From Euzebya pacifica (GTDB lineage Bacteria > Actinomycetota > Nitriliruptoria > Euzebyales > Euzebyaceae), in NCBI RefSeq assembly GCF_003344865.1, contig NZ_CP031166.1, forward strand, positions 496,001 to 560,000: 64,000 nt of DNA, read 5' to 3'. Shown piece by piece: positions 5,420 to 54,255 of this stretch (position 1 is the stretch's first letter; each line of letters starts with the position of its first letter). Under the pieces are notes generated by a model, which ran no database searches, was not told the origin of the DNA, and was given only the letters and a program-made list of their open reading frames with translations. The position numbers and the translations under genes were made by a program.

Positions 5420-5447
5420 ACCAGGAACGTACGACGGGGGTGTGACA
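5414..5447. promoter_or_regulatory. Dyad containing both divergent IS start codons
   Basis: TGTCACACC (5414-5422) and GGTGTGACA (5439-5447) form a perfect 9-base inverted repeat around a 16-base spacer. Each arm contains a GTGACA that serves as the first two codons of one of the divergent genes, so the two reading frames begin symmetrically. There is hardly room for separate ribosome-binding sites. Leaderless transcripts or a shared operator are possible readings. Confidence 0.5.
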
Positions 5448-6206
5448 CCAACAATCCGACGGCTGGTCGTGTTGACCGGCCTGACCCGCACCCAGCTCGA
5501 CACCATCACCGCCGCGCTGGCGAGTCCACCGGGCCCCGGTCGCCCGTGGGCGCTGCCGTTGCCCGCCCGGATCGTGCTGACAGCAGCGGCGTTGCGGACC
5601 AACCTGACCGTCCGGCAGATCGCGGCCGTGTTCGACATCCCCAAGTCCCAGGCCCACCGGATCATCACCGACCTCACCCCGAAGCTGGCCGGACTGCTGC
5701 CCAGCACCATCGACGGCGACCGCCGTTGGTCATGGACGGTGGACGGCACCCTCATCCCGACCCGCGACCGCACGGTAGCTGGCAAGTCGAAGAACTACCG
5801 GTACTCCACCAACGCCCAAGTCCTCAGCCGACGCCGTGATCTGCTCGTCATCGACATCACCGGCGGTGGTGCCGGGAACCGCAACGACACCATCCCCTAC
5901 CGCGACTCCACGGTGCAACAACGGTGTGCCGAGCATGGGCGGGTGTATGCCGACGGCGGCTACCGCGGCATCACCGAACTCCATACGCCCACGTTCGCTG
6001 GCGGCCGGATCGTGCGGGATGCCGCGTGGCGGCGCCACCGCAAGAAGCGCGCCCGGGCGGAGCACTGCATCGCCCGGCTCAAGGACTGGCAGGTCCTGCG
6101 CGACCACCGCCGACGAGGTCACCGCCTGCCCGACACCCTCCGCGCCGTCGCCGACCTCCACAACCTCCGCATCCTCACCCGCACCCCATTACGGGACGTC
6201 ACTTAG
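5442..6206 (+). CDS. IS5-family DDE transposase
   Basis: A 254-residue protein. Residues 50-78 form the N-terminal helix-turn-helix (LTVRQIAAVFDIPKSQAHR), and the catalytic triad is visible as Asp101 (WTVDGTLIP), Asp171 (YADGGYRG) and Glu207 (RAEHCIARLKDW), with the GNRND loop at 145-149. This is the usual arrangement of IS5-family transposases with an HTH_Tnp_4 domain. The start is GTG 5442 within the central dyad; GTG 5469 is a possible later start. The stop TAG at 6204-6206 is formed by target-site bases, and the last residues (RDVT) are encoded by the terminal inverted repeat. Confidence 0.9.
   Translation: MTPTIRRLVVLTGLTRTQLDTITAALASPPGPGRPWALPLPARIVLTAAALRTNLTVRQIAAVFDIPKSQAHRIITDLTPKLAGLLPSTIDGDRRWSWTVDGTLIPTRDRTVAGKSKNYRYSTNAQVLSRRRDLLVIDITGGGAGNRNDTIPYRDSTVQQRCAEHGRVYADGGYRGITELHTPTFAGGRIVRDAAWRRHRKKRARAEHCIARLKDWQVLRDHRRRGHRLPDTLRAVADLHNLRILTRTPLRDVT
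6188..6205. repeat. Right terminal inverted repeat of the IS element
   Basis: ATTACGGGACGTCACTTA, the partner of 3423-3440 in inverted orientation (16 of 18). The final TA is probably the duplicated target dinucleotide. It encodes the last residues of the DDE transposase. Confidence 0.85.
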
Positions 6207-28281: not shown

Positions 28282-28974
28282 TCAGGACAGCTGGTCGGCC
28301 GAGATTGGGTTCACGACCAGGTCCGCGACGAGCCAGCGCCCTCCCGCCACCGTCGGCGCGGTGAGGGTCAGCAGCATCGAGTGGGTGTCGCGCCGCTCCT
28401 CGGCCCCAGCGGTCACCATCGCCTCCACGACCACCAGCACCCGAACCTCGGCGGGGCCCTCGGCCACCACGGAGTGTTCAACGACGGTGCCCACCGAGTC
28501 CTGCCGACGCAGGTCCCGAACCGCGTCGGCCTGGTCGAACAGCCCGTCCGTGTCGGTGGTCAACCGTTCGTGCACCTGGTCGGTTACCCATGGCCGCAGC
28601 GACGCCCGGTGCTCGGCGGTCCGGAGTCCTGCCGGGATCGTGTAGTAGGCGGCGGCGAAGTCCAGAGCCGACACCACGTTGCGTGGGCTCGCTGGGACCA
28701 GCAGGTCCTCGCCGTCCAGCTGCGGGATGTCCTCGTCGTCGAGCAGGACGTCGGCCAGTGCCGGCTGCGGATTGGTCAGCGTCGGGTCGGTCAGGTCAAC
28801 GTCGACCTGGCCGTCCCCGCCGTTGGGCGCGTCGGCCACCACGGGTGGCACGGCCGGTTCCGCACCGCCGCCGGACTCCGAGGGTGGGGCGCCCCCGCCC
28901 AGGGGGGCCAGTAGCACGAGCAGGACGACCACGACGATGGCGGCGCCTGTCACCAGCAGGTGTCGGCTGGTCAT
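28282..28974 (-). CDS. Membrane-anchored NTF2-type conjugation protein
   Basis: A 230-residue protein; the ATG overlaps the stop of the wall-hydrolase gene (ATGA). One N-terminal transmembrane helix (about 6-24, LLVTGAAIVVVVLLVLLAPL), then an acidic Pro-rich linker, then a domain (about 95-228) with SALDFAAAYYTIPAGLRTAEHRA..., VRVLVVVEAMV and RWLVADLVVNP. This is the helix-then-sheet order of TcpC/NTF2-like domains. As the last gene of the long conjugation operon it is likely an outer-face accessory of the channel. Sequence identity to a named family is not certain. Confidence 0.68.
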   Translation of the reverse strand: MTSRHLLVTGAAIVVVVLLVLLAPLGGGAPPSESGGGAEPAVPPVVADAPNGGDGQVDVDLTDPTLTNPQPALADVLLDDEDIPQLDGEDLLVPASPRNVVSALDFAAAYYTIPAGLRTAEHRASLRPWVTDQVHERLTTDTDGLFDQADAVRDLRRQDSVGTVVEHSVVAEGPAEVRVLVVVEAMVTAGAEERRDTHSMLLTLTAPTVAGGRWLVADLVVNPISADQLS

Positions 28975-31900
28975 CCGGGTTGTCCTGAGCAGGTTCGGGC
29001 TGGCATGCACTTGGTGGACGTGGCCGAGGCGAAGATTGCTTGGTCCATGCCGCCGGGCGCGCTACCAGTTGTGGTTCCCATGTTTTGGGCGCACACCACG
29101 CTCATCACCTCGTACAGCGGGGAGGAGGCCCCACCGTTGGGATGGAACTGGTGGTGGTTGTGGGCCGGGGTGCCGTAGGCGTTGCCGGTGTAGCCGACGG
29201 TCCCAAGCACCTGCCCCTGCTGCACCCGTACCCCCGGGGCGATGGTTGGGTCAATGGAGTCCATGTGCAGCGACAGCCAGTGGTTGCCCGAGTCGCCGCG
29301 CAACTGGACCCGGTTGCCGGGGTTGCGGCTGGACGACAGGCCCGAATAGCCGATGGTGCCCGACTCGTTGGCGACGATCGGCACGCCAACCGCCGCGAAC
29401 ATGTCCAGGCCCTTGTGGGTTCGGCTGCCGCCACCGCGCGACGCCCCCCAGTCGTTCCAGAATGTCGTCGGGCCCGCGTTTGGGCACACCAACCCGTTGG
29501 CACCGACCAACGACAGCCCACCAACGGTCATGCAGGCGCCGGCGAAGGCCTGGGTTCCTGCTGGCTGTCCACCGGGCAGCGGAGGCTTGCTGCCTTCGGG
29601 AGGCGGGTCGTTGATCCGGTCGCCAAGCGCGGCCTCGGCGCCGGCTCGTGCCTCGTCGAGCCACTGGGTGTGGCGGCCGGCGTTGAACGCCGACCAGGGC
29701 GTGAAGTTGTAGCCGCCGCCGCGGGGCGCAGTTCGGTAGATGTCGTAGGCGAAACGGGCATTGACCACCGGCTCGTAGATTCCGGGGATGGGCGGGTTGT
29801 GGATGTCGTTGATCTGCCACAGGCCGTAGTCGATCGTCCCGTTGGTGTTGGTCCCGGCATTGTTGATGCTCGGGTTGCGCCCAGACTCCGGTTGGGTGAG
29901 CGCCACGGCGACGATGAGGTCCTCGCCGCGGAACCCGGCGTCGTAGGCGATCTGGGCGATCTCCTCCCACGACAGCTGTCCGGCGCCGGTGGACAGGTCG
30001 GTGGTGCCCGTCAGCGTTGTGCCTGCCGAACCGAAGCCGATGCCGCCGCAGTCCTCCCCGACCATCGACAGGGCGTAGGCCATCACGTAGTTGGCGAAGT
30101 CCGGGTGTGCTGCTGGCGTCCATGTGGGGACTTCCACGATGATCGCCGGATTGGCGAGACGACTCACCGACGACGTGACTCCCCACTGGGCCGAGGTCAG
30201 GACCGACTGGCCGTCCTCGCTGCGGAACGCTTGGGCCTGCGCGTGGGCGTAGAGGCGGCGCACCGCCTCGGGGGCAGCGTCCCCGGAGGGTTCGTCGGCC
30301 GGGCCGGTGGGGTCCTCGAAGACCGACAGGTCTGGGGACACGGAACGGAACGCGTCAAAGACCGCGTAGGCGAACAACCGGTCAAGGTGGGGTTCGCCGT
30401 CGGGATAGGGCGGGGCGCACGCCTGGTCCACCGGGTCCCATTGCTCCATGCCCTGCAGGTCGGCCCACAGGGTCGCCAGCGCATCGGCCCCCTCGAGGAG
30501 AAGACCGCCGGAGGACGGCAGCCGCCAGGTGTCGGGCAGGGCGAAGTCCTCACCCATTAGGCCGCCGACGAACTGCAGCAACGCCTGGTCGCACACCAGT
30601 CCGCCGCCGGCCCATTGGCCGATGACCGCGGGGCCGTCAGCGGGGAAGTTGTCGTTGCCGGCGGCCTTGTCGAAGATTCCGTCGTCGTTCAGGCCGCCGA
30701 CCCCTGCGTTCCAACCCCAGCCGCGCAACATCCATTCGTAGGGGCGGGCGGGGTGGCTACCACGGACCGGTGCGGCGTGCTGATCGATCAGTCCAACGCC
30801 GGGCGGGAGGCTGTGATGGCCGACCATGGCGATCTTCAGGTTGGTCGCCTCGTCGCACCGGTCGTAGTAGGGAACGGGGGGTGTGTCGGGGTTGTTGTCA
30901 TCGTCGTGCAGCGGTGACGGCGGGACCGGGAAGATGCCGCCGATGCTCCGATCGGAGTCGCACGGGACCTTCTGCCCCCATTCGTTGTAGAGCCATGCGA
31001 CCTGGACGGCTTCCTGTCCGAGCAGGTTCACCGCGTCGTTGCGGTCCATCACGTTGCCGGTGACCGGGTCGATCACGTGGATGGGCAGGTTCAGTGCTTC
31101 GCACCGCACGGCCCGGTCGATCTTCTGCGGGGTGGTCAGCCCGTGCACGGGAAGGGTGCAGATCTGCACATCGGTGAGGTCGACCATCGGTTCGATGGCC
31201 TCAAGCGCCATTCGCCAGTAGGCGAGGTGCGTTTCCCAGTCCTGGTCCGACGCGAGGAACCTGCGGTCCATGTTGCCGACCCGCACCAGCTGGGTGATCG
31301 CGTCAGGATCCAGATCGATTGGGGCGAACCCGCCACCCCCAAGGGCGGCGTCTGCATCGACCCACGGGCCGGCGACGCAGTCGCCGAGGTCGGTGGCGGT
31401 GAACTGCCGCATCGTGACCGGCGCGGGTTTCCCTGTGCCGCAAGTTCCGGCGGGTTGTCCGAGGTGGACACCGATGGCGTGGTTGAGCAGGTAGGCCCGC
31501 CAGTCGCTGCCACCGGAGAAGTGGCCGGGTGGGGCGGTCCAGGCGCTGAGCCCGACCGCGATGACGTTGCCGGACACACAGAGCGGGTCCGGGCCGCAGA
31601 GGCTGGTCTTGGTGGCGTCGCTGACCAGCACGACGCGGACGTGGGCTAGCGTGAGGCTGGCGGTGCGCTGCAAGGGGCGGCCGGCCGCCGCCCATGACCG
31701 GTGGTCGAGCAGGACAGCGTCCACGGTGCCGGCGACCGAGGCGGCAGTGGGGCCGAGGCCGTCTTCCACCTCCACGGTGTAGGCAACCGGTGTGCCTTGG
31801 CCCGACGCGTTGGTCGACCCGGGCGCGATCACCCAGCCCTCGGGGGAGACGATGTCCTCCTCGAGTTCCGGCGCGAGTGCGTCGGCGTCTATTCCGGCGT

Positions 31901-33698
31901 CGTCCTCGGACGTCACCGGGCCGCTAGTTGACGTGCCCAGGTAACCGTTGAGGTACTCGGTGGGCCCACTGACTTCGCCGTCCAACCACAGGCGAAGGTA
32001 GGCGTTCATCTCGGTGAGGATCGCGTCGAGTGCGGCATCACCCATCTGCGGATTGCCGGCGAAGCTGGACTCCGACCAGTTGAAGGCCCCGTCGAGGTAG
32101 TCCTCGGACAACAGGAACGGGCCGTGCCCACCCGAGACGAACTCGGTTGGTCCAATGACGGCAGCGCCGTCATCGTCGAAGAACCCACCCGCTCCACTGT
32201 CCGCCACGGGTGCGGGGAGCGGTTCGCCGGTGGCAGGAGTCGGGCTGGGCGAGGGATCCACGCCGGTCTGGGAGAAGACCACGTGCCCCTCTCCGAGGGA
32301 GGCAGTTGAAGAGACTTCGGTCCCGTCCGGGGTGGGCGTGGAATCCGGTGAGCCAACTGCGGGAGTGGCTGCTTGGGTGAGGGCGTGCTCTGGTGCAGGG
32401 CCACTGCGCGCCCTCGGCCACCCGCCGGTCATCTCGTCGAGGCTGTACGGATGAACCGTTTGGTGCCGACTGGTGAGGTAGCCGATGCCCGCGACGACTG
32501 GCCACGGGACGGACCGACGGGTCGCGAGCGACCGATAGGCCGACAAGGTGTCTGGCTGCGCCGAGGCCACCGCTTCTCCAGCACCTGAGGGTTCAGGATT
32601 GGCAGCCGTTCCTACGGGAGACCCGCCACCCAGAAGCGTCATGACGAGGACGAGGACGAGGATCACCGGCAAGGAGCACGCCGCCGCAAGACCCAGGGTG
32701 AAGGCAGGCGTTGACCGGATCGCTGCTCCGGAACCAGGCAGGATCACGTTGGCGCGCTTGAGCAGACGGTCGTATCGCTTCTGCAGTTGCTGGCCAAGGA
32801 ATCCGGACTCCTCAGCGATCCGGTCGATCGCCTTCTGGTTGAGGTCGATCTTCTTGGCGGCTTTCTCCGCGACTGCCGCTGCGGGTTTCAGCCCGGCGGT
32901 CAGGGCTTGGTGGGCCGCGCCCGCGCCTGACGCGGTGAGCGCGCCCTTGATGGCTCGTTCCTCAGCCATGTCCCGGACCTTGCCTAGCGCATGGCCAGCG
33001 GCTTGGACTTCCTGCCCCGACTGCTTGGTTCTTTCCCCGGCATCCTTGATCTGGGTGCCGGCTTCTTTCGCCTTTGCCCCGACTTCTTTCGTTGCCCTTC
33101 CGGCGCGTTCGGCCACATTGCCGGCTTTCTGGGCTCCTTTCCCCCCGACCTCGGATGCCTTTCCGCCGGCCTCGGCGGCTCCACCCGCCACCACACCGAC
33201 GGCACCAACGATCATGATCGGGACCCCGACGATCGCGCCCTTGCCGGTCGCCGACAACTTCGCACCCGCCTGCACGGCCTTCTGCGACGCCTCCCGGAGT
33301 GCCTTGCCGCCCTTCTGGGCTGCCTTGCCGCCGGCCTCAGCAGCGCGACCGCCGGCCTGGGCCGCCTTGCCGCCCACCTCAGCGGTGCGTCCGGTCCGTT
33401 CAATCCCTGCGCCGGTTGCCTCGATCGCCCGTCCCGTCCGCTCAACACCAGCACCGACGCGTTCAATGTTGCGTCCAGCGGCCTCCACACGGCCTCCAAC
33501 GAACCCCTGCTCGACCTCGGCGGCCTCAGAGGGGGGCTGCGGTGCCAAGGGCTCACGGTTGGCTCGGAGTGCCTTGAGCGCGTTCGGCGCCTGCGCCCCG
33601 TTCGCTGCCGGCTCTGCCGCAGTGGGGTGAGATGTTGGCTTGGTCGTGGGGGTCTTCGCCGGTGGCTTGGGCGTCAGCGGCACACCGCCGGAGGTCAT
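28971..33698 (-). CDS. Giant cell-wall hydrolase of the conjugation system (transglycosylase + M23 peptidase)
   Basis: A 1575-residue protein. Residues 55-300 are a repetitive Ala/Gly/Lys helical region with KAAQ.GG-type repeats, and a transmembrane helix lies near 345-370 (LGLAAACSLPVILVLVLVM). A large central part has no clear family. A lysozyme-like transglycosylase domain lies near 1270-1390 (DLIVAVALTQPESGRNPSIN, IDYGLWQINDIHNP). An M23/LytM peptidase occupies about 1425-1560 with its zinc ligands in THKGLDMFA and AHNHHQF. Together these would open the wall for the mating channel, like TcpG/VirB1-type hydrolases but much longer. It overlaps its neighbours on both sides by 4 bases. Confidence 0.88.
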   Translation of the reverse strand: MTSGGVPLTPKPPAKTPTTKPTSHPTAAEPAANGAQAPNALKALRANREPLAPQPPSEAAEVEQGFVGGRVEAAGRNIERVGAGVERTGRAIEATGAGIERTGRTAEVGGKAAQAGGRAAEAGGKAAQKGGKALREASQKAVQAGAKLSATGKGAIVGVPIMIVGAVGVVAGGAAEAGGKASEVGGKGAQKAGNVAERAGRATKEVGAKAKEAGTQIKDAGERTKQSGQEVQAAGHALGKVRDMAEERAIKGALTASGAGAAHQALTAGLKPAAAVAEKAAKKIDLNQKAIDRIAEESGFLGQQLQKRYDRLLKRANVILPGSGAAIRSTPAFTLGLAAACSLPVILVLVLVMTLLGGGSPVGTAANPEPSGAGEAVASAQPDTLSAYRSLATRRSVPWPVVAGIGYLTSRHQTVHPYSLDEMTGGWPRARSGPAPEHALTQAATPAVGSPDSTPTPDGTEVSSTASLGEGHVVFSQTGVDPSPSPTPATGEPLPAPVADSGAGGFFDDDGAAVIGPTEFVSGGHGPFLLSEDYLDGAFNWSESSFAGNPQMGDAALDAILTEMNAYLRLWLDGEVSGPTEYLNGYLGTSTSGPVTSEDDAGIDADALAPELEEDIVSPEGWVIAPGSTNASGQGTPVAYTVEVEDGLGPTAASVAGTVDAVLLDHRSWAAAGRPLQRTASLTLAHVRVVLVSDATKTSLCGPDPLCVSGNVIAVGLSAWTAPPGHFSGGSDWRAYLLNHAIGVHLGQPAGTCGTGKPAPVTMRQFTATDLGDCVAGPWVDADAALGGGGFAPIDLDPDAITQLVRVGNMDRRFLASDQDWETHLAYWRMALEAIEPMVDLTDVQICTLPVHGLTTPQKIDRAVRCEALNLPIHVIDPVTGNVMDRNDAVNLLGQEAVQVAWLYNEWGQKVPCDSDRSIGGIFPVPPSPLHDDDNNPDTPPVPYYDRCDEATNLKIAMVGHHSLPPGVGLIDQHAAPVRGSHPARPYEWMLRGWGWNAGVGGLNDDGIFDKAAGNDNFPADGPAVIGQWAGGGLVCDQALLQFVGGLMGEDFALPDTWRLPSSGGLLLEGADALATLWADLQGMEQWDPVDQACAPPYPDGEPHLDRLFAYAVFDAFRSVSPDLSVFEDPTGPADEPSGDAAPEAVRRLYAHAQAQAFRSEDGQSVLTSAQWGVTSSVSRLANPAIIVEVPTWTPAAHPDFANYVMAYALSMVGEDCGGIGFGSAGTTLTGTTDLSTGAGQLSWEEIAQIAYDAGFRGEDLIVAVALTQPESGRNPSINNAGTNTNGTIDYGLWQINDIHNPPIPGIYEPVVNARFAYDIYRTAPRGGGYNFTPWSAFNAGRHTQWLDEARAGAEAALGDRINDPPPEGSKPPLPGGQPAGTQAFAGACMTVGGLSLVGANGLVCPNAGPTTFWNDWGASRGGGSRTHKGLDMFAAVGVPIVANESGTIGYSGLSSSRNPGNRVQLRGDSGNHWLSLHMDSIDPTIAPGVRVQQGQVLGTVGYTGNAYGTPAHNHHQFHPNGGASSPLYEVMSVVCAQNMGTTTGSAPGGMDQAIFASATSTKCMPARTCSGQPG

Positions 33699-40354: not shown

Positions 40355-43300
40355 TCAGCCCAAGTCGGCCAGCAGTTCGTCGAGGTCTGGGTACTCCTCA
40401 TCGGGACGACCCCAGTCAGGGGCATCTCCGCCTTCACCCTCCGGCCGGTCCCGTCCATCCGCCACGGGTTCCGTCTCAGCCCGGCCCTGAGCGGCCCCCT
40501 GAGCCGCTGACGGTGCGACCGCACCCGGCATCACTGCCCGACCGCCGGTCGGCAACCACACCCCGGACGGATCCGGCGGCGGAGCCGCGACCACCGTTGG
40601 TCCGGTGGTGCCCGGAAGCCGACCGCCGACCTCAACCCGGCTCTCGCCGTCCTTGGGCACCGGTTCGAAGAACATGTCACGGTCGTTGGGCGCGTCCGGG
40701 TCCTTCTCATCAGGGGCGCGCACGAACAGGCACCGGACTCCCTTGTAGGACTTGCCGTACGACATCTTTCCCCGACCGGGCGTCTTGATGCCCTGCAACC
40801 CTGACTCCTCAATCGTCAACATCGACCCGATCCTGTTCATCGACAGGCCGATACGTCGGCACTGCGCCAGCAGCGTGGTGGGGATGTTCTCCTTCTTCGG
40901 GTACTGCGTCATCGCCGCGATGTGCATGCCCGCCGACCGGGCGATACGCGCCATCTCCTCAACGTGTCCGATCAGCCTCTCCCAGTCGCCGTGCTGCTCC
41001 TTGTTCGCCGGCTTCTTGAAGAACGTCGAGCACTCCTCAATGATGATGAACTGGTACGGAAGCATGAACGGGTGTGCCTCCGGGGGGCCGTCCCACCACG
41101 GGAACGCCGTTGCCGCCGGCCAGTAGTCAGGGACCGTTCCCGCATGGGCGTGGGCGATCTCCTGACGGGCGATGAACCTTGCCTGGGTCAACTTCTGCGG
41201 CTTCGCCGGATGCATCGTGAACGACTGGTTGCGCCGGTACGTCTCCTCCTTCAAGTGCTCGAGCAGGTCGGCCATCGCCCCATACGGATTGGCCATGAAC
41301 CCAGGTGTCGTCAGACCCAAGAAGTGGTTCACATGGGCGGCGTCCTCGAAGTACACGAGCTCGGTCTTTGGGTCGGCGAGCGCGAACTTCACATCCGCCG
41401 GATCGTTGTTGTGCATCAGCTGCAACAGCATCCAAAGCGTAGTAATGCTATTCATCGATGGCACTAGACCCTCACCCGAGAGGAAGACGTGGCTGGGTGC
41501 ATCCACCTCTATGCATCGCGTCGGTCGCCGGTCTACTGCTTCGACCGAACGGACCCAACGTCGACCGGCGATGGGCGGTGTGCTCTTCGGCAGTCGCTCT
41601 GCCTTGCGGGCCAGACGTACGGACCGGACGCATGATGTCCACCCAACGATCCATACCGGGCCGTAGTCGTGATCGCGGAGGACCGACCGCGTCGTGGTGA
41701 TGGTGGCCTTCGCGCCAAGCGACCTCGCAAGAGCCAGCACCCCTCTGGCCAGACGCTCGGATACGACTCCGAACAGGGCCCTGCCGTTGCGGTCCACATG
41801 TCCGTCGGTGTCCATGAGCCCTTGGAGGAGCGCGAGCCGCTGGTCGGCTGATCCGCGCATGTAGAGGTCGGGGATGAACTTGGTGTGGGACTTGGTGCCG
41901 GAGAGCCCCAGTTCTGCGAGTGCCTGACGTAGGGGGCTTGGCTGCTTGGGCCGGTCGCAGGTGAGGTAGCCGGTGTCGAACCCCGGACGTTGCCGAGAGA
42001 TGCTGACACCGTCGGGCAGGTGGGGTTGGATGAGTCGGGTGGTGGCGGCGAGCACGCCGATGCCGCCGTTGGTGCCTCGGCGCAGTCCGGCGAGGCAGGC
42101 CCCAGCGAGGAAGGACGTGGTCGTCCCGTCCGCACGGGTGGGCCATGCGTCGTCGGTGGTGACCTCATAGCGGGTCGCCCCTCCCCTGCCGGTGTAGGCC
42201 TGCACCCGTGCGGTCCTCCCCGACTGCTCGGCGACGGCGGCGAGTTGACGGGCCGCCGTCTCGGTCGAGGTGACCGGGTTGCCCCGGTATGCGGGGGAGG
42301 CGGCTATCGCCCCGCGGAGGACCTCGTCGGGGTCGTGGATGCCGATGAGTTCGCCGGTGTCGATGTCGACCCCGATCTTCTCGCGTAGCCAGAGGTTGGC
42401 GTCGTTGTCCCGGTAGTCGCGTTCGGGCCAGGTGATCTGCCAGCACAGTTCGGTGCCGTCGTTGCGGACTTCGATGTCCATGCCGTCGGGCAGCACGCGC
42501 CGGACGTGGTCGATGATCTCGGGGTCGGCGCTGGTGATCCATTGGCGGGACGGGAATCCGATGTCACCGTCGCCGAGGAGGACACCGAGCAGGTACGGGT
42601 CGATCGGCAGGTCGACGTCGTCGGCCTGCGCGGCGGGTGCCAGGTCGATCGACCAGACGTCGCCGTCGGTGTGGCCTGTGTGGAGGTCGCGGGTTTCCAG
42701 CTTGCGGTAGGTGCCGGCCTTGCGGTCGGTGCGGTTCTGCACGACCCACTCGTGGGCGGCGTCGGCCACGATGGAGGTCCCGTCGTCGAACGTCACCTCG
42801 AAGCAGGGTCGGTCCTGCCAGATCGGTGAGAGGCCGACAACGGCGCATGGTTGCCCCTGGTCGTCATAGACGCGGTCGCCGATCCGCAGTTCGCCCATGG
42901 TGGTCCACCCGTCGGGTGACGGGATGGGCGTGTCGAGGGCCAGTGCCTTCCCAGATCCGGAGTTGTGGGCGACGAGGCCGTTGGCGAGGTAGTTGTGCGT
43001 TGATGAGACCGTGAGGTCGTAGAGGTCCATCACGCCGACGTGTGCGACATCCTTGACGGGGGTCCAGTAGGCGGTGCCGCCTCCGTGATGCCCGTCTGGG
43101 TGCTCGGTGGCGACCATGTCGCCGTGCCGCAGAGTCGCCAGGCCTCTCCAACCGGTGGGGGTCCACACGGGATGGTCGGGCGAACCGGTGAGTTGCCGAC
43201 CGTCGATCAGCCGCAGGGACCAGGCGTCTGCCCGACGGACGGTGCCTGCATGGGTCGATCCGGCCCAGCCGAGGCGTCCGTCGGGCAGACCGGTGCGGAT

Positions 43301-45643
43301 CGCGAGCTTGTGGTCGTGGCCGGGGTGGACCAAGTCGCCGATCGGCACGGGGTCTTGACCCATGGGCCGGACGAGGGTGTCCGGGGAGAGGCAGGCGCCG
43401 CCGATGAACAGGTGGGGGTTGTCGCCTTCCCACTTGTCGATGAGGAGGTCGCCTTCGGCTCCGGGTCCGACGGCCCAGTCGATGTCGGGGACGCCGGGCA
43501 CGGGTGCGTGGAGGACGGTGGTGTTGGTGTTGGGCTTGGGGCCGTTGGCGTAGTCGATGGCGAGGTAGGGACGGTCGAGCGGGTCGATCTTGGCGGCGAG
43601 CAGCTTGAAGAGGGCGGCGTCCTTGGGGTGGCTCTCGATCTCGACGTAGCCGAGCCCTGAGGTTGCCTTGAGTGCTTCGACGCCGTCGACGAGGTCGCTG
43701 ATGGGTAGGCCGGGAACGGTCCGGCATTCGTAGGAGGCGACGCCTTGCTTGTTGACGGTCTTGGAGATGACCGCAGGGCTTCGCCGGTCGGATCCGACGA
43801 GCCCGCAGGCCCGGAAGTAGTCGTCCCAGTCGAGGGCGTCGAGGAACAACCGGTCGCTGTTGGTCTCGGGTCCAACGAGGGGTTCGTCGGGGTTGTAGCC
43901 GGCGGGGTCGCCGAGCATGACGGTGTCGGAGGGGTGGCAGCCGTAGATGACCGACACGAGCGGGGAGGGGTTGCCGGAGGGGTCGTCACGTCGGGTGATC
44001 CGCAGGTAGTCGACCTCGATCTTCTCCGCGAGGGCGGCGGTCTTCTTGGACACGGCGGCCCAGTCGATGCTGGCGGACAGTCGGAACTTCGCTTCGGTGA
44101 TGGCGGGCCGGCCGGGCTTGGTGAGCCGGACGGCTTCCTCGAGCACCGGGGCTCCGAGCTTTAGCGCGTAGAAGGCGGCGTGCAGGTCCAGGGCTTCGAG
44201 GAACGCCCGTGTCTTGGGGTCGACTTCGACGGTGTCGGGGTGGTGACCGAAGCAGATCGAGATGGCGGTGTCGGGCAGCACCCGTCCGTCGGAGTCGTGG
44301 GTGCGCCGTCCGATCCTCAGCCACGGCGCGTCGATCTTCTCTGCGATTGCCTCGGCCTGCTTCATCACCTTCTCGTAGGTGGTGCCCTGCGGCAGGTTCC
44401 AGATCGTTTCGAACAGTGCCCGGTCGGCGGTGCGCACGAGTGGGATGGGGCGGACCAGGTCGGGCATGCCGAGTTTGAGGGCGTTGAAGGCCCGGTCGAA
44501 CGCCTGGTGGATGGCGTAGGCGAGCGTCCAGTTGTCGAGGTCGCCGGCGAGGTGTGGGGCCGCTGGCAGCGGCACGGTGTTCCACACGACCTTGAACTGC
44601 TGTTCGTTGCGGCTGCCGGGAACCGGCTGTCCGCCGGGGTCGGTGTCGGGCATGGGGGCAACGAGGACGTACTTGCCGGTGCCCGGTTCGGTTGCGACGG
44701 CCGACATGAGTTCTTCGGTCTTGTCCTTGTACTTGGCGATCGTCCCGCCGGCCGGGACTTGGAAGATCGCCATCTTGTGGGTCTCCTCGCCGTTGCCTTC
44801 CGGAGGCTGGGAGAACTCGCCGGCGTACTGGGGTGGTGGCACCTGGCCGAGGCGAACCGACATCCAGCGTTCGCCCCACAACTGCGCGTTGGTGAGGAAC
44901 TCGCGTTGGGGGGCTGCGAACTCGATGATGTAGCGGCGCGCGCCGATGGAGGCGCCGGTGAGCAGGCCGATGGCAACCCATGCGGTGGTGATGATCGGGA
45001 GGGACAGTGCGAACCCGTCGATGCCGCTGGCCACCCTGATGGTCGCGACAGTGCCGACGGCCGCGATCGCGATCGCCGTGGCCAGTGGCGCCCAGATGAT
45101 CTTGGTGGTCCCGAGCCTGCCGATGACGTCGGCGTCGATGACGGCGGCGGGGAAGGTTCCCTGCATCTGGAAGTCGGCGTAGGCGGCGTCGCGCGACCCT
45201 GCGGCGACGGCTTGGGCGAGCAGGAACACCGCGAGGGTGTCGATGGCGAAATGGGGCATCGCGATGCCCGTGGCTGCCATGACAAGCAGTTCAGTGAGGC
45301 CGGCGGTGAGGCCTGCGAGGAATGCCCACCAGGCCGAGATCCTGATCGGCGGCCACCACGAGTTGCCGTCGGGACCCACCCCGCCGAACCAGGCCTTGGC
45401 TCCGAGGGGTTGCATCAGGTGGGCGGCGTACAGCTGTGCTTTGCCGGCGTTGACGAACCCCGGCCCCTCGATGTCGTAGATCTCCTCTGGCTTGGGCCAG
45501 CCGAACCGGACGAACACGGCCGTGGCCAGGTAGGCACCGACTCCTGGTAGTCGGAACCAGATGCCGCCGACGAGAAGGACGACTGCGATCCCGATCTCGA
45601 CCTGCTTCTCCGACCACGGGTTCGGTGGCTTTCGGACGGCCAT
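40355..45643 (-). CDS. FtsK/TcpA-like conjugation ATPase interrupted by two inteins
   Basis: A 1762-residue precursor; removing the inteins leaves about 1119 residues. Four or five transmembrane helices lie in the first 250 residues, followed by a cytoplasmic ATPase. The Walker A motif reads GGA / SGSGK / S once the inteins are removed: intein 1 occupies residues 751-894, SGSGK is 895-899, intein 2 is 900-1398 and the next extein residue is Ser1399. Walker B is FIIIEE (about 1532-1537). A Pro/Ala/Glu tail ends in EEYPDLDELLADLG. This fits a TcpA-type FtsK-like coupling or pump ATPase. ATG 45643 is six bases after the NERD gene. The ATPase can work only after both inteins splice out. Confidence 0.87.
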   Translation of the reverse strand: MAVRKPPNPWSEKQVEIGIAVVLLVGGIWFRLPGVGAYLATAVFVRFGWPKPEEIYDIEGPGFVNAGKAQLYAAHLMQPLGAKAWFGGVGPDGNSWWPPIRISAWWAFLAGLTAGLTELLVMAATGIAMPHFAIDTLAVFLLAQAVAAGSRDAAYADFQMQGTFPAAVIDADVIGRLGTTKIIWAPLATAIAIAAVGTVATIRVASGIDGFALSLPIITTAWVAIGLLTGASIGARRYIIEFAAPQREFLTNAQLWGERWMSVRLGQVPPPQYAGEFSQPPEGNGEETHKMAIFQVPAGGTIAKYKDKTEELMSAVATEPGTGKYVLVAPMPDTDPGGQPVPGSRNEQQFKVVWNTVPLPAAPHLAGDLDNWTLAYAIHQAFDRAFNALKLGMPDLVRPIPLVRTADRALFETIWNLPQGTTYEKVMKQAEAIAEKIDAPWLRIGRRTHDSDGRVLPDTAISICFGHHPDTVEVDPKTRAFLEALDLHAAFYALKLGAPVLEEAVRLTKPGRPAITEAKFRLSASIDWAAVSKKTAALAEKIEVDYLRITRRDDPSGNPSPLVSVIYGCHPSDTVMLGDPAGYNPDEPLVGPETNSDRLFLDALDWDDYFRACGLVGSDRRSPAVISKTVNKQGVASYECRTVPGLPISDLVDGVEALKATSGLGYVEIESHPKDAALFKLLAAKIDPLDRPYLAIDYANGPKPNTNTTVLHAPVPGVPDIDWAVGPGAEGDLLIDKWEGDNPHLFIGGACLSPDTLVRPMGQDPVPIGDLVHPGHDHKLAIRTGLPDGRLGWAGSTHAGTVRRADAWSLRLIDGRQLTGSPDHPVWTPTGWRGLATLRHGDMVATEHPDGHHGGGTAYWTPVKDVAHVGVMDLYDLTVSSTHNYLANGLVAHNSGSGKALALDTPIPSPDGWTTMGELRIGDRVYDDQGQPCAVVGLSPIWQDRPCFEVTFDDGTSIVADAAHEWVVQNRTDRKAGTYRKLETRDLHTGHTDGDVWSIDLAPAAQADDVDLPIDPYLLGVLLGDGDIGFPSRQWITSADPEIIDHVRRVLPDGMDIEVRNDGTELCWQITWPERDYRDNDANLWLREKIGVDIDTGELIGIHDPDEVLRGAIAASPAYRGNPVTSTETAARQLAAVAEQSGRTARVQAYTGRGGATRYEVTTDDAWPTRADGTTTSFLAGACLAGLRRGTNGGIGVLAATTRLIQPHLPDGVSISRQRPGFDTGYLTCDRPKQPSPLRQALAELGLSGTKSHTKFIPDLYMRGSADQRLALLQGLMDTDGHVDRNGRALFGVVSERLARGVLALARSLGAKATITTTRSVLRDHDYGPVWIVGWTSCVRSVRLARKAERLPKSTPPIAGRRWVRSVEAVDRRPTRCIEVDAPSHVFLSGEGLVPSMNSITTLWMLLQLMHNNDPADVKFALADPKTELVYFEDAAHVNHFLGLTTPGFMANPYGAMADLLEHLKEETYRRNQSFTMHPAKPQKLTQARFIARQEIAHAHAGTVPDYWPAATAFPWWDGPPEAHPFMLPYQFIIIEECSTFFKKPANKEQHGDWERLIGHVEEMARIARSAGMHIAAMTQYPKKENIPTTLLAQCRRIGLSMNRIGSMLTIEESGLQGIKTPGRGKMSYGKSYKGVRCLFVRAPDEKDPDAPNDRDMFFEPVPKDGESRVEVGGRLPGTTGPTVVAAPPPDPSGVWLPTGGRAVMPGAVAPSAAQGAAQGRAETEPVADGRDRPEGEGGDAPDWGRPDEEYPDLDELLADLG
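41450..42946 (-). other. Intein 2 (499 residues) with LAGLIDADG endonuclease, class 3-like
   Basis: It starts with Ala (ALALDTPIPSPDGWTTMGEL) instead of Cys or Ser, as in class 3 inteins. It has the class 3 Trp in block B (ADAAHEW) and the internal block F Cys (TRCIEVD). Two LAGLIDADG-type motifs are present (LLGVLLGDGDIG and LALLQGLMDTDGHVD). The end is VPSMN before extein Ser: class 3 inteins usually have Thr where this has Ser and His before the final Asn where this has Met, so splicing may be slow or conditional. Confidence 0.88.
42962..43393 (-). other. Intein 1 (144 residues), mini-intein without endonuclease
   Basis: It begins CLSPDTLVRPMG, has the block B TxxH pattern in TGSPDHPVW, and ends YDLTVSSTHNYLANGLVAHN before extein Ser. 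These are normal class 1 features: Cys1, penultimate His and final Asn. No LAGLIDADG or HNH insertion is present, so it cannot home by itself. Only 15 bases of host sequence separate it from intein 2. Confidence 0.9.
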
Positions 45644-45648
45644 GGTGG

Positions 45649-46281
45649 TCAGCGCCCGTGCGCGGTGACGGTGGTCTGGTCGGGCAGCAACCCGTGGAGG
45701 GATCGGAGGATGGGGCCGCACGGTGCCGGGGACCCGGTGGTGTCGAGCATCTTCTTCAGTCGTCCGGCGGCCCTGGGCCCGGCGGCGATCGCGGTGCCGT
45801 CCTTGGGCCGGTACAGCGTCGTGTTGACCTTGCCGTTGTCGTTTGAGGCGAACACCACGGTGACTGCGTCGATCCGGAGTCCAGCGAGGTGGGGCTTGAC
45901 CGCCGGGGTGCTGTCCCCCACTGCGAGGATGCGTTCGCGGAGTTTGCGGGCCGCGGCGGCCAGGGTCTGCTTGTCAGCGTGCGGCACGGCCTCACGGCCA
46001 CGGCGGGTCGTTCCGCCCATCGTCCAGTACAGGCCCGGCTTCCACTGCTTCGCGTCGATCACGAGGATGTGGAACCCGCGGACGACGACGTGGTCGACGT
46101 TGGCCTGGTAGCCCGGGATGCGGAGATCGTGGAGGACGTAGACGTCGGGGTCCGCACTGAACGCCTGCCCGAGCAGTTCGGCGCATGCGAGCTCGCCGAC
46201 GCGCCCCTGCGCGGCCCGGTCACCGGTCGTCCAGCCGCCGGCTCGGACGAGGGTGCCGCCGGGGGTTCCGTAGCTGTTCAT
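45649..46281 (-). CDS. NERD-domain putative nuclease
   Basis: A 210-residue protein (ATG 46281). Residues 22-80 carry the NERD signature: QGRVGELACAELLG, then DLRIPGYQANVDHVVV and FHILVIDAKQWKPG, where Glu, Asp and the DxK of a PD-(D/E)XK-like fold are in place. NERD proteins are usually thought to be nucleases and are frequent on plasmids. It lies at the head of the FtsK-like gene, six bases away. The remaining residues have no named domain. Confidence 0.82.
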   Translation of the reverse strand: MNSYGTPGGTLVRAGGWTTGDRAAQGRVGELACAELLGQAFSADPDVYVLHDLRIPGYQANVDHVVVRGFHILVIDAKQWKPGLYWTMGGTTRRGREAVPHADKQTLAAAARKLRERILAVGDSTPAVKPHLAGLRIDAVTVVFASNDNGKVNTTLYRPKDGTAIAAGPRAAGRLKKMLDTTGSPAPCGPILRSLHGLLPDQTTVTAHGR

Positions 46282-49634: not shown

Positions 49635-52600
49635 TCACAACGCTCCGCCGGCGTCGGGCGGGGCGAGGCGTCGTTCGAGAGGCTTGAACATCGAGTGCTG
49701 CGGGATGAAAGAAGCGGAGACGACCCCGATCGGGCCGTGGCGGTTCTTGGCGAGGCCGAACTCCACGATCCCGACGTCCGGGCTGTCGGGGTTGTAGACC
49801 TCGTCGCGGTACAGGAACACCACGGCTGCGGCGTCCTGTTCGAGGGCCCCGGAGTTGTGGGAGACGATGTCGTTGGCGATGAAGGCATTGGGGCCTGGCA
49901 CCGCCGCGTCGAAGGTCTCCTCCTCCCCGGCTGGGCTGATGGCAACGATCTCGTCCCAGAACAACTCGGAGGCTGCGGTGTCAGCGACGCCCGCACCGCG
50001 GCGGTAACCGGTTGTGCCGGTGTCACCCCCCAGTGGGACGTTCTGGACGCCCGCCGCGCTGCTGTCCGGGTCGTTGGGCCGCTCCGGGTCCGTGCTGGTC
50101 CCGACCGCGGCGAGCAGGTCACCGACGACGAGGTCCCCGGTCTTGGCCCATCCGCCGAAGCTGAGGAAGGGGTGGTTGTCGGTCGCGCGGACACGCCTGC
50201 CGGAGGCCAACTGAATCTCTGTGACTGGCTTGACTCCGGTCGACCACACCTCGGTCATCACCGACCGGATCAGACGGCCCCGGTCATCAACGCTCCACAC
50301 CTTGACCGGCCCACCGTCGACGAGGTCCCGGATCGGGACACGGGCGCCGGTGTCGGCCCGCCACACCTTCGTGTCGCCCGTCAGGCACTCGCGGAGGTCG
50401 GACAGGATCGGTCGGCGGTCCTGTCGTTCCTCGACCTTCCGGGACAGCTGGGAGAGTGCGAGGACGGCGCAGTTCTTCTTCTTGGCGAGCAGCTTGAGCC
50501 GCCGCGAGACGGTGGAGACCTCCTGCTGGCGGCTCTCGACGCGTTCCCCGAGCTCGACGAGCTGGAGGTAGTCGACGATGATGAGGTCGAGGCCGTCGAG
50601 TTCGCGTTCGGCCCGTTCGATGCGGGCGGCGATCTCCCCGAAGGTCATGGCGTCGTCGATGATCATCATCGGCAGCACGTCGAGCCGGGCGGCGGCCTTG
50701 GAGATCATCTGCCACTCCCGGTCGTCCATCGTGCCCTGCTCCATCTTGTCGGTGGGCATCCGGGCCTCGGCCGACATGAACCGCTTGCCGAGGTCGAGCT
50801 GCGACATCTCCAGCGATACGAACGCGGTCTTGTAGCCGCCCCGCGCCGCTTCGAGCGCGAGCTGGCCGGCGACCAGGCTGTTGTGAACGATGAGGTCGTC
50901 GGCGATGAAGTTGTGGTGGGGGTCCACTTGGATGTCGTAGGTCGCTTCGGTCCCGTCCGGTTCGACTGAGACGATGGGGTCGAAGCCGGTGTCGCCATCG
51001 AGGAGGCGGTGCAGGCTGTCGTCATCGAGCACTTCGGCGAAGGCGCGCAGTCGTGAGGGGGTGAGTCGCCTGGTGCGGTCGCGTCCTTGTTTGTCGGTGC
51101 GCAGTCCGGCGCGCCGGAACAGGTCGGGCCACGACATCCCGGTGGCCTTTCGGGCCGTGTCGATGCGTTCCCACATGGTCGCGGGGTACATGAGCAGGCC
51201 CGTGCGGCCCCCGTCGCGTGCTGTGGCGATCGCACGAACGCGGTCTACGGCGTCCTGCTTGCCGGGGACGGTGATGAGGTCGCAGAACCGCAGAGCTTGG
51301 TCGGCGTCGTGGATGGCAACCTGCCAGGCGCCGGCGTGCCCGTTTGGCTTGTAGTCGATCCGTGCGGCGATGCCGAGGCGCAGCAGCAGGTGGGCGACGT
51401 CTCGGGAGAGTCGTTCCGAGGATGACGCGAAGCCGATGTCGATGGCGCCGATCCCGTCCATCCGAGTCGTGTTCTGTGAGTAGGCGATCCAACCGTCGGT
51501 GGCCCACAGGCATCCGAGGAACTCAGTGAGTTGGTCGGCGGGAAGCCGCATGATGGCGTCGGGGATGTGCTTGTCGTGGGTGTGACACGGCCACAGGCCG
51601 TGATCATCGAGCAGGACCTGGACGGGACCGCGTCGGTCGGTGCTCCACCGCAGTTCGGCGATGGCTCGCTCGATGCGTTGCCCAGCATCGCCACGGGTGC
51701 CTTCGCCACGACGGTGGCGCTTGGACACGCCGATGGTGACGCCAGCGCGTTCGCAGACGTCGTCCCTCGACGGAAGACGGCCGGCGGCGAAGGTGATCTC
51801 GGTGGACCGGTTGTCCTCCGTCCAGGCGCGTTTGACCCTGGTCCGTGCACCGAGGGCTTCCGCGCACGCGATGACGTCTGCGAGCACCTCGTCGAGACCC
51901 GCAGTGAACCCAGGGCTGGTCTTGACCGTGGAGAAGGAACCGTCGCCGAGCATGTACCCGAGGAGTCGGACCTCTTCTGACTTCATCCGTGCCGGGTCCT
52001 GTGGCATGGGAAGGCGCAGCGGAACTTCGAGGTGGTCGGCGCCGACGCGGAGGTCGCCGACCTCGATGAAGCCCCGGTCGGTCAGCACCCGGTGGTTGGC
52101 AGTGGCCCTGACGGTCCGGCCCGACGCGGTGGTCACGCGGTAGACGGCACGCCGGCCGTTGTCGGCGACGCCCACAACCGGCGAGGCCACGATGCGGCCA
52201 ACGGTCCGGTCCAGCGAGGCGACCATGCCGCCCCCCGCTGCCACGATGTCGCCGATGGACCGCACCGACCCCGTCGCGGGGTCGAGCACTCGGGTTGATG
52301 CCGGCAGGCACTTGCCCATTGCGGGTCGGGCGGCGATGAGGGTGATCTCGGTGCGGCGCAGTCCGCGGGTGAGTTTGTCGAGGTCGGGGAGGGTGAAGGA
52401 GGGGCCGAGGAGGGCGCCGCCGCTGGTCTCGACTTCCTCGGCCCAGTCCAGTACCTGTCCGATGGCGGCGCCGATGGTGATGTCGTGGCCCTGGATGTCG
52501 GCGGCGGCTTGGAGTGCGGCGAGCTCGTCGGTGAGGCGGCTGATTTCGCCGGCGACGTCGAGGGTGTCGCTGCCGGCCTTCTGTGCGTCGGCGCCGAACT

Positions 52601-52952
52601 CGAGGAGCTTGCGCTGGACCGACAGGGTGCGCAGTTCGAGGACGTACTCGCCGATCCGGTCCGGCGTGACGACCGATTCCTGGGCGTGGCCGAGGATGGC
52701 GTCTGGTCCGCCGGCGGCGTCGGCGGTGCCCTCCCGGACGAGCCGGTTGAACACCAGTGGCATGTCGACGGCTCCGCCGGCGTCGTTGAGTGCGGTGATG
52801 GCGTCCCAGATGAGCCGGTGGGCGGGGGTGTGGAAGTCGGCTGACTGGACGCCGGCGCCGATGGTTTCGGAGAGTGCGTCGGGGCTGGTGAGGCACGCCC
52901 CGATGACCCCGGACTCGAGTACGGGGTTGTGCAGGTTCGTGGAGTCGCTCAC
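49635..52952 (-). CDS. dnaB: Replicative DNA helicase DnaB with two inteins
   Basis: A 1105-residue precursor; the exteins add up to 450 residues, normal for DnaB. GTG 52952 follows AGGA by eight bases. The N-terminal domain (LHNPVLESGVIGACL) is followed by the RecA-type motor. Intein A (residues 215-691) is inserted directly after ARPAMGK of Walker A and before Ser692. Intein B (856-1033) lies after LSDLRE, before SGALEQDAAAVVF. Walker B is LDLIIVDYLQL. Both are known DnaB intein sites in other bacteria. A plasmid-borne DnaB indicates that the element supplies its own replicative helicase. Confidence 0.95.
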   Translation of the reverse strand: MSDSTNLHNPVLESGVIGACLTSPDALSETIGAGVQSADFHTPAHRLIWDAITALNDAGGAVDMPLVFNRLVREGTADAAGGPDAILGHAQESVVTPDRIGEYVLELRTLSVQRKLLEFGADAQKAGSDTLDVAGEISRLTDELAALQAAADIQGHDITIGAAIGQVLDWAEEVETSGGALLGPSFTLPDLDKLTRGLRRTEITLIAARPAMGKCLPASTRVLDPATGSVRSIGDIVAAGGGMVASLDRTVGRIVASPVVGVADNGRRAVYRVTTASGRTVRATANHRVLTDRGFIEVGDLRVGADHLEVPLRLPMPQDPARMKSEEVRLLGYMLGDGSFSTVKTSPGFTAGLDEVLADVIACAEALGARTRVKRAWTEDNRSTEITFAAGRLPSRDDVCERAGVTIGVSKRHRRGEGTRGDAGQRIERAIAELRWSTDRRGPVQVLLDDHGLWPCHTHDKHIPDAIMRLPADQLTEFLGCLWATDGWIAYSQNTTRMDGIGAIDIGFASSSERLSRDVAHLLLRLGIAARIDYKPNGHAGAWQVAIHDADQALRFCDLITVPGKQDAVDRVRAIATARDGGRTGLLMYPATMWERIDTARKATGMSWPDLFRRAGLRTDKQGRDRTRRLTPSRLRAFAEVLDDDSLHRLLDGDTGFDPIVSVEPDGTEATYDIQVDPHHNFIADDLIVHNSLVAGQLALEAARGGYKTAFVSLEMSQLDLGKRFMSAEARMPTDKMEQGTMDDREWQMISKAAARLDVLPMMIIDDAMTFGEIAARIERAERELDGLDLIIVDYLQLVELGERVESRQQEVSTVSRRLKLLAKKKNCAVLALSQLSRKVEERQDRRPILSDLRECLTGDTKVWRADTGARVPIRDLVDGGPVKVWSVDDRGRLIRSVMTEVWSTGVKPVTEIQLASGRRVRATDNHPFLSFGGWAKTGDLVVGDLLAAVGTSTDPERPNDPDSSAAGVQNVPLGGDTGTTGYRRGAGVADTAASELFWDEIVAISPAGEEETFDAAVPGPNAFIANDIVSHNSGALEQDAAAVVFLYRDEVYNPDSPDVGIVEFGLAKNRHGPIGVVSASFIPQHSMFKPLERRLAPPDAGGAL
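49854..50387 (-). other. DnaB intein B (178 residues), mini-intein
   Basis: It begins CLTGDTKVWRADTG, has the block B motif RRVRATDNHPFLS (TxxH) and ends FIANDIVSHN before extein Ser. Between about residues 85 and 135 it has a Pro/Gly/Ser-rich segment without LAGLIDADG motifs, so the endonuclease appears to be lost. Confidence 0.9.
50880..52310 (-). other. DnaB intein A (477 residues) with LAGLIDADG endonuclease
   Basis: It begins CLPASTRVLDPATG, has block B VRATANHRVLTDRG and ends YDIQVDPHHNFIADDLIVHN before extein Ser. Two LAGLIDADG-type motifs are seen: LLGYMLGDGSF and FLGCLWATDGWI. All splice residues are standard. It interrupts Walker A after GK, so the helicase is inactive before splicing. 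Confidence 0.92.
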
Positions 52953-52971
52953 CGGGGCAATCCTATCATGT

Positions 52972-53008
52972 GCTAGCAATAGTAGCACAATATAGTGGGC
53001 TGTGTCAG
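52972..53008 (-). promoter_or_regulatory. dnaB promoter with TGCTAGC element
   Basis: On the minus strand CTGACA (53008-53003), an 18-base spacer and TACTAT (52984-52979) form a promoter. TACTAT is followed immediately by TGCTAGC, as in the promoter at 9626-9662, and GTGCTA/TAGCAC makes a small dyad around it. The GTG of dnaB is 27 bases downstream, with AGGA in between. The -35 box overlaps the stop codon of the upstream gene. Confidence 0.6.
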
Positions 53009-54255
53009 GCGACGTTCGGGGTGGTGAGCGGTGCCTGTCCGGCCCATGGCGGGGTCAGCAGCCAGTCGTGGGGCTTTGGGGCGGTGATCGTAGGGCGGAA
53101 GGGGTACGCAGCGGCGTCGGCGAGGCTCACCGTCCCCCAGGTCTTGCCGTTGGCGGTGTAGGCGCAGACCAGGTCCACCGCGGACTCCGACACCGCGTGG
53201 TGCGGCGGGAACCAGTCCTCCCACGCGGCGACCATCACCTGTGACCGGGCGCGCTGGACGGCTTCGGGGTCGGCTAGGGGCCGCTGCCCGGAGTGCCGAC
53301 GCAGCGTCCCCGGGGAGATGATCTCGGCGTGCATCTTCCGGAGTTGCCCGGCGACGTGCCGGTGGTTGTCGCGGTGGGCGTTGAGGAACACGACCACGAC
53401 GCCGGTGTCGTCGATGCTGCGCCCCGCGAGCCACGAGGCCCACTTCTCCATCTTGGCGGCGTGGTGGTCCAGGTTGCGGGACGCGCACACCTCGATGACG
53501 ACGCGCAGTCCGTCGTCGCGCCAGAGGGCGATGTCGCCGGTGTAGTGGCCGGGGTCGTCCTTGTCGTTGGTGAGGGCGACGGGGCCGGTGGCGTGCTCGG
53601 GGGAGGCGGCAATCCAGGCCGGTTGGACCTCCATGAGCCGCAGGGAGGCCTCGACGGTGAGGAGGTCGTGTCGGGCGTGGGGGCCGCCGGCGTGGTGGCG
53701 TGGCGGCAGGTTGGCGAAGATCCGCCTGGCGGTGTCGGGTGGCAGAAGTCCGGTGTAGCGGCGGATCGGCTTGCCGTCGTGGAGCTTCCACAGGTAGGTC
53801 TGCTTGCCGACGTGCTTGTGCCCGGCGGCGTAGCGGCCCCGCTCCACCAGTCCCACGTCGAACATGGGGACGAACCGCAGCGACCGGTTCGAGGCGCTGC
53901 TGGCGCTCCACGCGACCAGTTGGGCGGTGTTGGCGTGGTGGAGGCCGTCGAGGATGGAGAGAATCCGGTGCACCGATGGACTGCGCAGGCAGGTCCGCAT
54001 CGCCTTCGCGCCCTCGTCGCTGGCGGGGTCGAGCAGGTCGGTGGTCTGCACCCACAGGGTCGCGTCGGTCAACTCGTCGACGTCGCGGTGCTCGGTGAAC
54101 CTGGGGCTGAACACGGCGGGCGCTGACCAGTAGCCGGCGGCCCAGTAGGGGTCGGGCCGCTTCCAGTACGGGTAGGAGTCGATCGCCGAGATCGGCGGGT
54201 AACGATCGGGGGAGTCCTCGGCGGTCCCCCGGCCGGTTGCGATCGGGCCGCTCAT
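53005..54255 (-). CDS. Replic_Relax-family protein (candidate relaxase)
   Basis: A 416-residue protein; the ATG overlaps the VirD4-like stop as ATGA. Residues 75-190 follow the Replic_Relax (PF13814) pattern: a winged-helix part (SVHRILSILDGLHHANTAQL), then VPMFDVGLVERGRYAAGHKH and TYLWKLHDG. A later part (about 235-300) has HYTGDIALWRDDGLRVVIEV, then KMEKWASWLAG, like the 'PD...E.D....K...Y' core of that family. Replic_Relax proteins are linked to plasmid relaxation or replication in actinobacteria. Its coupling to virD4 supports a DNA-processing role in transfer. No HUH or MobA relaxase is present in the window. Confidence 0.7.
   Translation of the reverse strand: MSGPIATGRGTAEDSPDRYPPISAIDSYPYWKRPDPYWAAGYWSAPAVFSPRFTEHRDVDELTDATLWVQTTDLLDPASDEGAKAMRTCLRSPSVHRILSILDGLHHANTAQLVAWSASSASNRSLRFVPMFDVGLVERGRYAAGHKHVGKQTYLWKLHDGKPIRRYTGLLPPDTARRIFANLPPRHHAGGPHARHDLLTVEASLRLMEVQPAWIAASPEHATGPVALTNDKDDPGHYTGDIALWRDDGLRVVIEVCASRNLDHHAAKMEKWASWLAGRSIDDTGVVVVFLNAHRDNHRHVAGQLRKMHAEIISPGTLRRHSGQRPLADPEAVQRARSQVMVAAWEDWFPPHHAVSESAVDLVCAYTANGKTWGTVSLADAAAYPFRPTITAPKPHDWLLTPPWAGQAPLTTPNVA

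Follow-up and report, generated by a model that had tools for sequence, protein, structure and literature searches.

In mycobacterial DnaB, a single helicase carries the class 3 intein DnaBi1 at the GK↓S site of the P-loop (arrow, insertion point) and the class 1 intein DnaBi2 (PMC6195587), and in DnaBi1 of M. smegmatis a disulfide between Cys48 and the block F Cys has been tied to the inhibition of splicing by H2O2 (PMC6195587). Two insertion sites one residue apart in one P-loop, TerL1-a and TerL1-b, are described for mycobacteriophages (PMC5050341). In haloarchaeal MCM, the endonucleases of the inteins at the neighbouring sites MCM-a and MCM-d interfere in homing, and extein stretches of 34-35 bp are cleavable homing targets (PMC10643990).

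The locus presented here lies in a stretch of 64,000 nucleotides from Euzebya pacifica, which is called the window and to which all positions refer. The Walker A motif of an FtsK/TcpA-like ATPase encoded in it reads GGA-[intein 1, 144 aa]-SGSGK-[intein 2, 499 aa]-S. We consider it quite probable, judging from the sequence, that two unrelated inteins were inserted independently in the P-loop of a T4SS motor ATPase and that both would have to splice before ATP binding. The pair bears on the questions of whether two Hint domains five residues apart can splice, and in what order, and of how a second mobile element homes into a site already broken by the first.

The interrupted ATPase and its replicon

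The ATPase gene, which was recognized from its translation, PF01580 and plasmid homologues, is encoded on the minus strand at 40355..45721, a frame of 1788 codons with zero stops in which both inteins are in frame (1788 aa); its start is likely Met27 (MAVRK). The three extein pieces were delimited on the same strand by translation and alignment. The N-extein (43394..45643) ends with ...NPHLFIGGA, the middle extein SGSGK (42947..42961; TCC GGA TCT GGG AAG) comprises 15 bp and supplies five P-loop residues, and the C-extein (40355..41449) starts with SITTLWML and includes the Walker B-like FIIIEE. Counted along the P-loop GxxxxGKS, intein 1 separates residue 2 from residue 3 (site 1), and intein 2 separates residue 7 from residue 8 (site 2).

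A profile search found an FtsK/SpoIIIE ATPase domain, whose Walker A (the P-loop) and Walker B motifs align with those of plasmid homologues; the match of the C-extein to PF01580 (FtsK_SpoIIIE; 2.5e-5) has 24.3 bits and is barely above the cut-off of 24.0. The homologues, encoded on plasmids of Glaciihabitans and Curtobacterium, have approximately 22-24% identity to the exteins and lie downstream of a NERD-domain gene, as in the window. Their P-loops are uninterrupted (IAGASGGGKSVS on the Glaciihabitans plasmid and LAGVTGAGKSVL on Curtobacterium pS16), and when both inserts are removed from the ATPase, the alignment closes exactly and runs without a break through both Walker motifs, the spliced protein reading GGASGSGKSITT. 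The perfect P-loop GGASGSGKS, which an earlier note made from the letters of the window had predicted upon removal of both inserts, is thus found in the sequence and in the alignment to the empty homologues.

These homologues form one weak set in the plasmid collection, and close relatives of the exteins were detected neither in the genome contig nor in the viral contig collections; for the N-extein, no close relative was found in 66 genomes of the class. Two Curtobacterium megaplasmids (L039 and L040) encode TcpA-like homologues that have an empty P-loop and carry a class 3 intein elsewhere (NDLK↓D...PTHN↓TNLAR), of which the second LAGLIDADG motif seems degenerate (MDHAG).

The window sits in a contig of 571,580 bases, which we infer to be probably a megaplasmid, in a genome of 6.37 Mb and two contigs. 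Neighbours of the ATPase gene encode a VirB4/TcpF-like ATPase and a lytic SLT/M23 protein, with the NERD gene upstream as on the related plasmids; a neighbouring TrbL/VirB6-like protein gave a weak match, under the cut-off. A T4SS-like transfer operon around the ATPase gene is therefore likely, and these neighbour genes bear out the context proposed in the earlier note. We propose that the ATPase is the coupling or motor protein of a Gram-positive-type conjugation (T4SS) operon, its role in DNA transfer being predicted from gene context. A relaxase was not found in the scanned proteins, and conjugation itself is therefore unproven.

Several other genes of the window, all on the minus strand, may be recorded here. 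A protein of 1575 aa (28971-33698) with DUF3152, SLT_3 and Peptidase_M23 domains probably serves the transfer operon by opening the cell wall. A second, uninterrupted P-loop ATPase (54252-57041; GDPGAGKTN) is coupling-protein-like and has no Pfam or NCBIfam match, and a protein of 787 aa (3422-5785) has a weak match to a Cas12f1-like/TnpB nuclease domain. The same replicon encodes a DnaB-like replicative helicase (49635-52988) with two class 1 inteins: the P-loop intein A (50880-52310; 477 aa, LAGLIDADG, GMGK↓C...HN↓S) and intein B (49854-50387; 178 aa, LRE↓C...HN↓SG). Together with the ATPase, four inteins are present in two proteins within 12 kb.

Two inteins of different class

Intein 1 (residues 777-920, 144 aa; 42962..43393, minus strand) has Cys at position 1, SPDH in block B, a C-terminal part reading YDLTV...HNYLANGLVAHN with the ending LVAHN, and Ser at +1, and it has therefore every residue by which class 1 is recognized, namely a nucleophile at position 1, the block B His, a terminal HN and a +1 nucleophile. 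In block B, Ser replaces the Thr of TxxH and His is kept; since TxxH is usual in class 1 inteins and not obligatory, this Ser is no bar to class 1 membership. The segment matched PF14890 (Intein_splicing) with an E-value of 1.9e-7 in the genome search, the total for the frame being above the curated cut-off, and also TIGR01443 (intein C-terminus), and the closest solved sequence was the MtuRecA intein (phmmer, 2e-8). In a model of the tandem inteins, the pLDDT of intein 1 was approximately 30 over most of its length for want of aligned rows, and it was modelled separately for this reason. The separate model (pLDDT 83) has the predicted Hint fold, with Z scores of 21-22 to the SspDnaB, NpuDnaB and MtuRecA inteins (for 6fre, Z 21.8 and 1.9 A over 147 residues; for NpuDnaB, Z 21.6). 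The endonuclease is no longer present in intein 1. When 30 genomes of the same order were searched, its closest relative was a class 1 intein of a chromosomal-type DnaB, inserted at a different site and 34% identical over the full length.

Intein 2 (residues 926-1424, 499 aa; 41450..42946, minus strand) starts with Ala1 and ends with PSMN, so that the terminal Asn (N499) and Ser+1 are present. In accordance with class 3, it has no nucleophile at position 1, and has Trp at B:12 (W67, in a block B that also contains DxxH) and Cys at F:4 (the block F nucleophile C478; 41513..41515, minus strand). Its Cys48 (42803..42805, minus strand) was aligned to Cys48 of DnaBi1 in the phmmer alignment and the class 3 comparison. 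Both LAGLIDADG motifs, LLGVLLGDG (42566..42592, minus strand) and LQGLMDTDG (41801..41827, minus strand), keep the catalytic Asp, and the Pfam profiles LAGLIDADG_3 and Hom_end match above the cut-off; from these motifs, with both catalytic acidic residues, the endonuclease looks intact. The closest solved structures are mycobacterial class 3 DnaB inteins (phmmer, 2e-26), and the predicted model of intein 2 superposes on one of them (6bs8) with Z 22.2 and 1.2 A over 125 residues, and on PI-SceI with Z 22.9 over 323 residues. In sequence, intein 2 is closest to class 3 P-loop inteins of phages and plasmids.

From viral sequences 85 class 3 inteins were extracted, 75 of them distinct, and these together with seven from plasmids gave a comparison set of 82. 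The Trp, the block F Cys, the block B His and the terminal Asn are invariant in this set (82/82), as is Thr at G:5, for which intein 2 has Ser497, and the penultimate His is present in 79 of the 82, where intein 2 has Met. By its residues, intein 2 is of class 3 type, with the triplet WCS, and is not a canonical WCT member. We keep it in class 3 because the Trp, the Cys, the fold and the nearest relatives are all those of class 3 and because the change from Thr to Ser is conservative. The PSMN ending is a new finding, through which the class 3 mechanism would gain a naturally occurring variant. Intein 2 occupies the classic P-loop site, between lysine and serine, and class 3 inteins at GK↓S/T account for 51 of the 75 distinct viral ones.

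The boundaries given in the earlier note (41450-43393 for the whole, with inteins of 144 and 499 residues on either side of SGSGK) proved correct to the base upon translation, and its assignment of a class 1 mini-intein and a class 3 intein with endonuclease agrees with the profiles, motifs and predicted folds. As both segments match intein profiles and the homologues are empty, its reading as inteins stands. The separate origin that it suggested is likewise favoured by the difference in class and by the nearest relatives, which are a chromosomal DnaB class 1 intein for intein 1 and phage and plasmid class 3 P-loop inteins for intein 2.

Rarity, splicing and origin of the pair

Inteins are common in P-loops, alternative sites in the P-loop are already known, and in archaeal RFC such inteins may lie close together; two inteins in one P-loop with a middle extein of five residues are an extreme case. 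For such a pair, no description was found in the literature examined and no repeat in the collections searched. These searches used exact patterns, required the HN ending, covered plasmid and phage collections, IMG/VR and approximately 650 actinobacterial genomes, and were inspected for the best-ranked matches only. With the junction as a query, no second case was present among the best-ranked matches in 72,556 plasmid records and 50,697 phage records; tblastn matches that apparently spanned both inteins turned out to be terminases or helicases carrying a single class 3 intein. An exact DNA pattern that finds the window itself found nothing in IMG/VR. Searched for in 396 genomes from across the phylum, the pattern HN↓[ST]GxGK had its one true match at the ATPase locus, and four others were chance occurrences outside proteins of such kind; a set of 250 genomes from a second actinobacterial order contained none. 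Among the viral class 3 inteins, none has a second intein five residues upstream, and none of the class 1 inteins from viral contigs is followed by [ST]GxGK.

The simplest reading is that the pair represents two selfish elements accumulated in a conserved motif, both of which would have converged on the part of the gene where the DNA is most conserved. Intein 1 would splice via Cys1, with the first Ser of SGSGK as the +1 nucleophile, and intein 2 via the internal block F Cys, with the Mg-binding Ser of the P-loop as the +1 nucleophile. Each intein would see the other as extein sequence, which should make either order of splicing chemically possible, and once both are excised, GGASGSGKS would be rebuilt and the ATPase would be able to bind ATP. 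The precursor, with its P-loop split in three, is very unlikely to bind ATP until both inteins have been excised. It is from the boundaries, the predicted folds and motifs and the empty homologues that we infer that both inteins splice, that the precursor is inactive, and by which route the pair evolved. Against this explanation are the two departures of intein 2 block G from the class 3 consensus and the Ser in block B of intein 1.

Because the two sites are 15 bp apart, less than targets of 34-35 bp, either insert should disrupt the target that the other needs for homing, and the second arrival would consequently have depended on a tolerant endonuclease, on co-conversion or on ordinary recombination. 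The GC3 is approximately 0.69 over codons 1351-1450 (41372-41671 of the window), which cover the junction of intein 2 and C-extein, compared with approximately 0.87 over most of the gene, and this dip could be a faint sign of a recombination or co-conversion tract from the second arrival.

The same dip, together with the two departures at nearly invariant block G positions, would also suit a reading in which intein 2 is impaired in splicing (PSMN against PTHN), the ATPase is dead or poorly matured and the transfer operon is decaying. The PSMN ending may indeed slow splicing, and the Thr of WCT, which a class 3 structure places in the catalytic triad proposed for it (PMC7664689), is replaced in intein 2; however, Ser retains the hydroxyl, inteins without the penultimate His can splice through compensating changes (PMC7664689), and the frame is open to the end, with Walker B kept in the C-extein and the endonuclease motifs intact. 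We regard such impairment as unlikely. The earlier note raised the idea of a regulatory switch for conjugation, which received no support; selfish accumulation explains the pair equally well. In its fuller form the pair would be a maintained lock with two keys, each intein answering a different condition and intein 2 responding through oxidation of Cys48 and the block F Cys, and the exit of a slow, redox-sensitive class 3 intein and a class 1 intein from one P-loop would tie DNA transfer to the state of the cell. Intein 2 does keep the equivalent of Cys48 and the block F Cys, the disulfide pair of the redox-inhibited DnaBi1 (PMC6195587), the unusual block G residues could slow its splicing, and there is no P-loop before both inteins are spliced. 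But the Cys aligned to Cys48 is common in class 3 (56 of the 82 inteins) and thus indicates no special adaptation, the endonuclease is kept in intein 2 as for a mobile element, and the pair is conserved in no relative found; with no close relative having the pair, conservation of the arrangement cannot be demonstrated. This makes a maintained switch distinctly unlikely in our estimation.

With five residues between the inteins, the two active sites must be close, and both inserts might exit together by cross-splicing between the N-junction of intein 1 and the C-junction of intein 2, by which SGSGK would be lost and GGA-SITT formed. Each intein, however, has its own complete splice-site residues and its own predicted Hint fold, and the product would be without a P-loop, so that we consider this highly improbable. 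An artefact of assembly or annotation, for which no point in favour was found, is hardly credible, because neither insert breaks the reading frame, the terminal motifs of both are complete, and the segment is internal to a contig of 571,580 bases. Independent accumulation of two selfish inteins is accordingly the explanation that we prefer.

Comparison with known systems

The FtsK-like motor ATPase of plasmid pRDE01 of Rhodococcus sp. RDE2 resembles the ATPase of the window in having a class 3 intein at GSGK↓S and differs in being without a second intein. On the Streptomyces sp. NBC_01454 plasmid NZ_CP109461.1 (3890-8185 of the segment L044), a ClpB-like double AAA ATPase has two class 3-type inteins, with one intein in each P-loop (GSGK↓T and GTGK↓T). 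The TerL1-a and TerL1-b sites are like those of the window in that two intein sites lie within a single P-loop, and are different in that the host is a terminase and that the excerpted part of PMC5050341 treats them as distinct sites and mentions no TerL with both. Haloarchaeal MCM is likewise an ATPase with two inteins, of which one sits at the P-loop Lys, but there the sites are in separate motifs, whereas those of the ATPase in the window are 15 bp apart, less than the target stretches of 34-35 bp in MCM.

Mycobacterial DnaB shares with the ATPase of the window a class 3 intein between Lys and Ser of the P-loop and a class 1 intein in one ATPase, and intein 2 is closest, among solved structures, to the DnaBi1 type by sequence and fold. 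The class 1 intein of the mycobacterial helicase, however, is in motif H4, off the P-loop, whereas the ATPase of the window has both inteins in the P-loop, five residues apart, and its class 3 intein carries an endonuclease.
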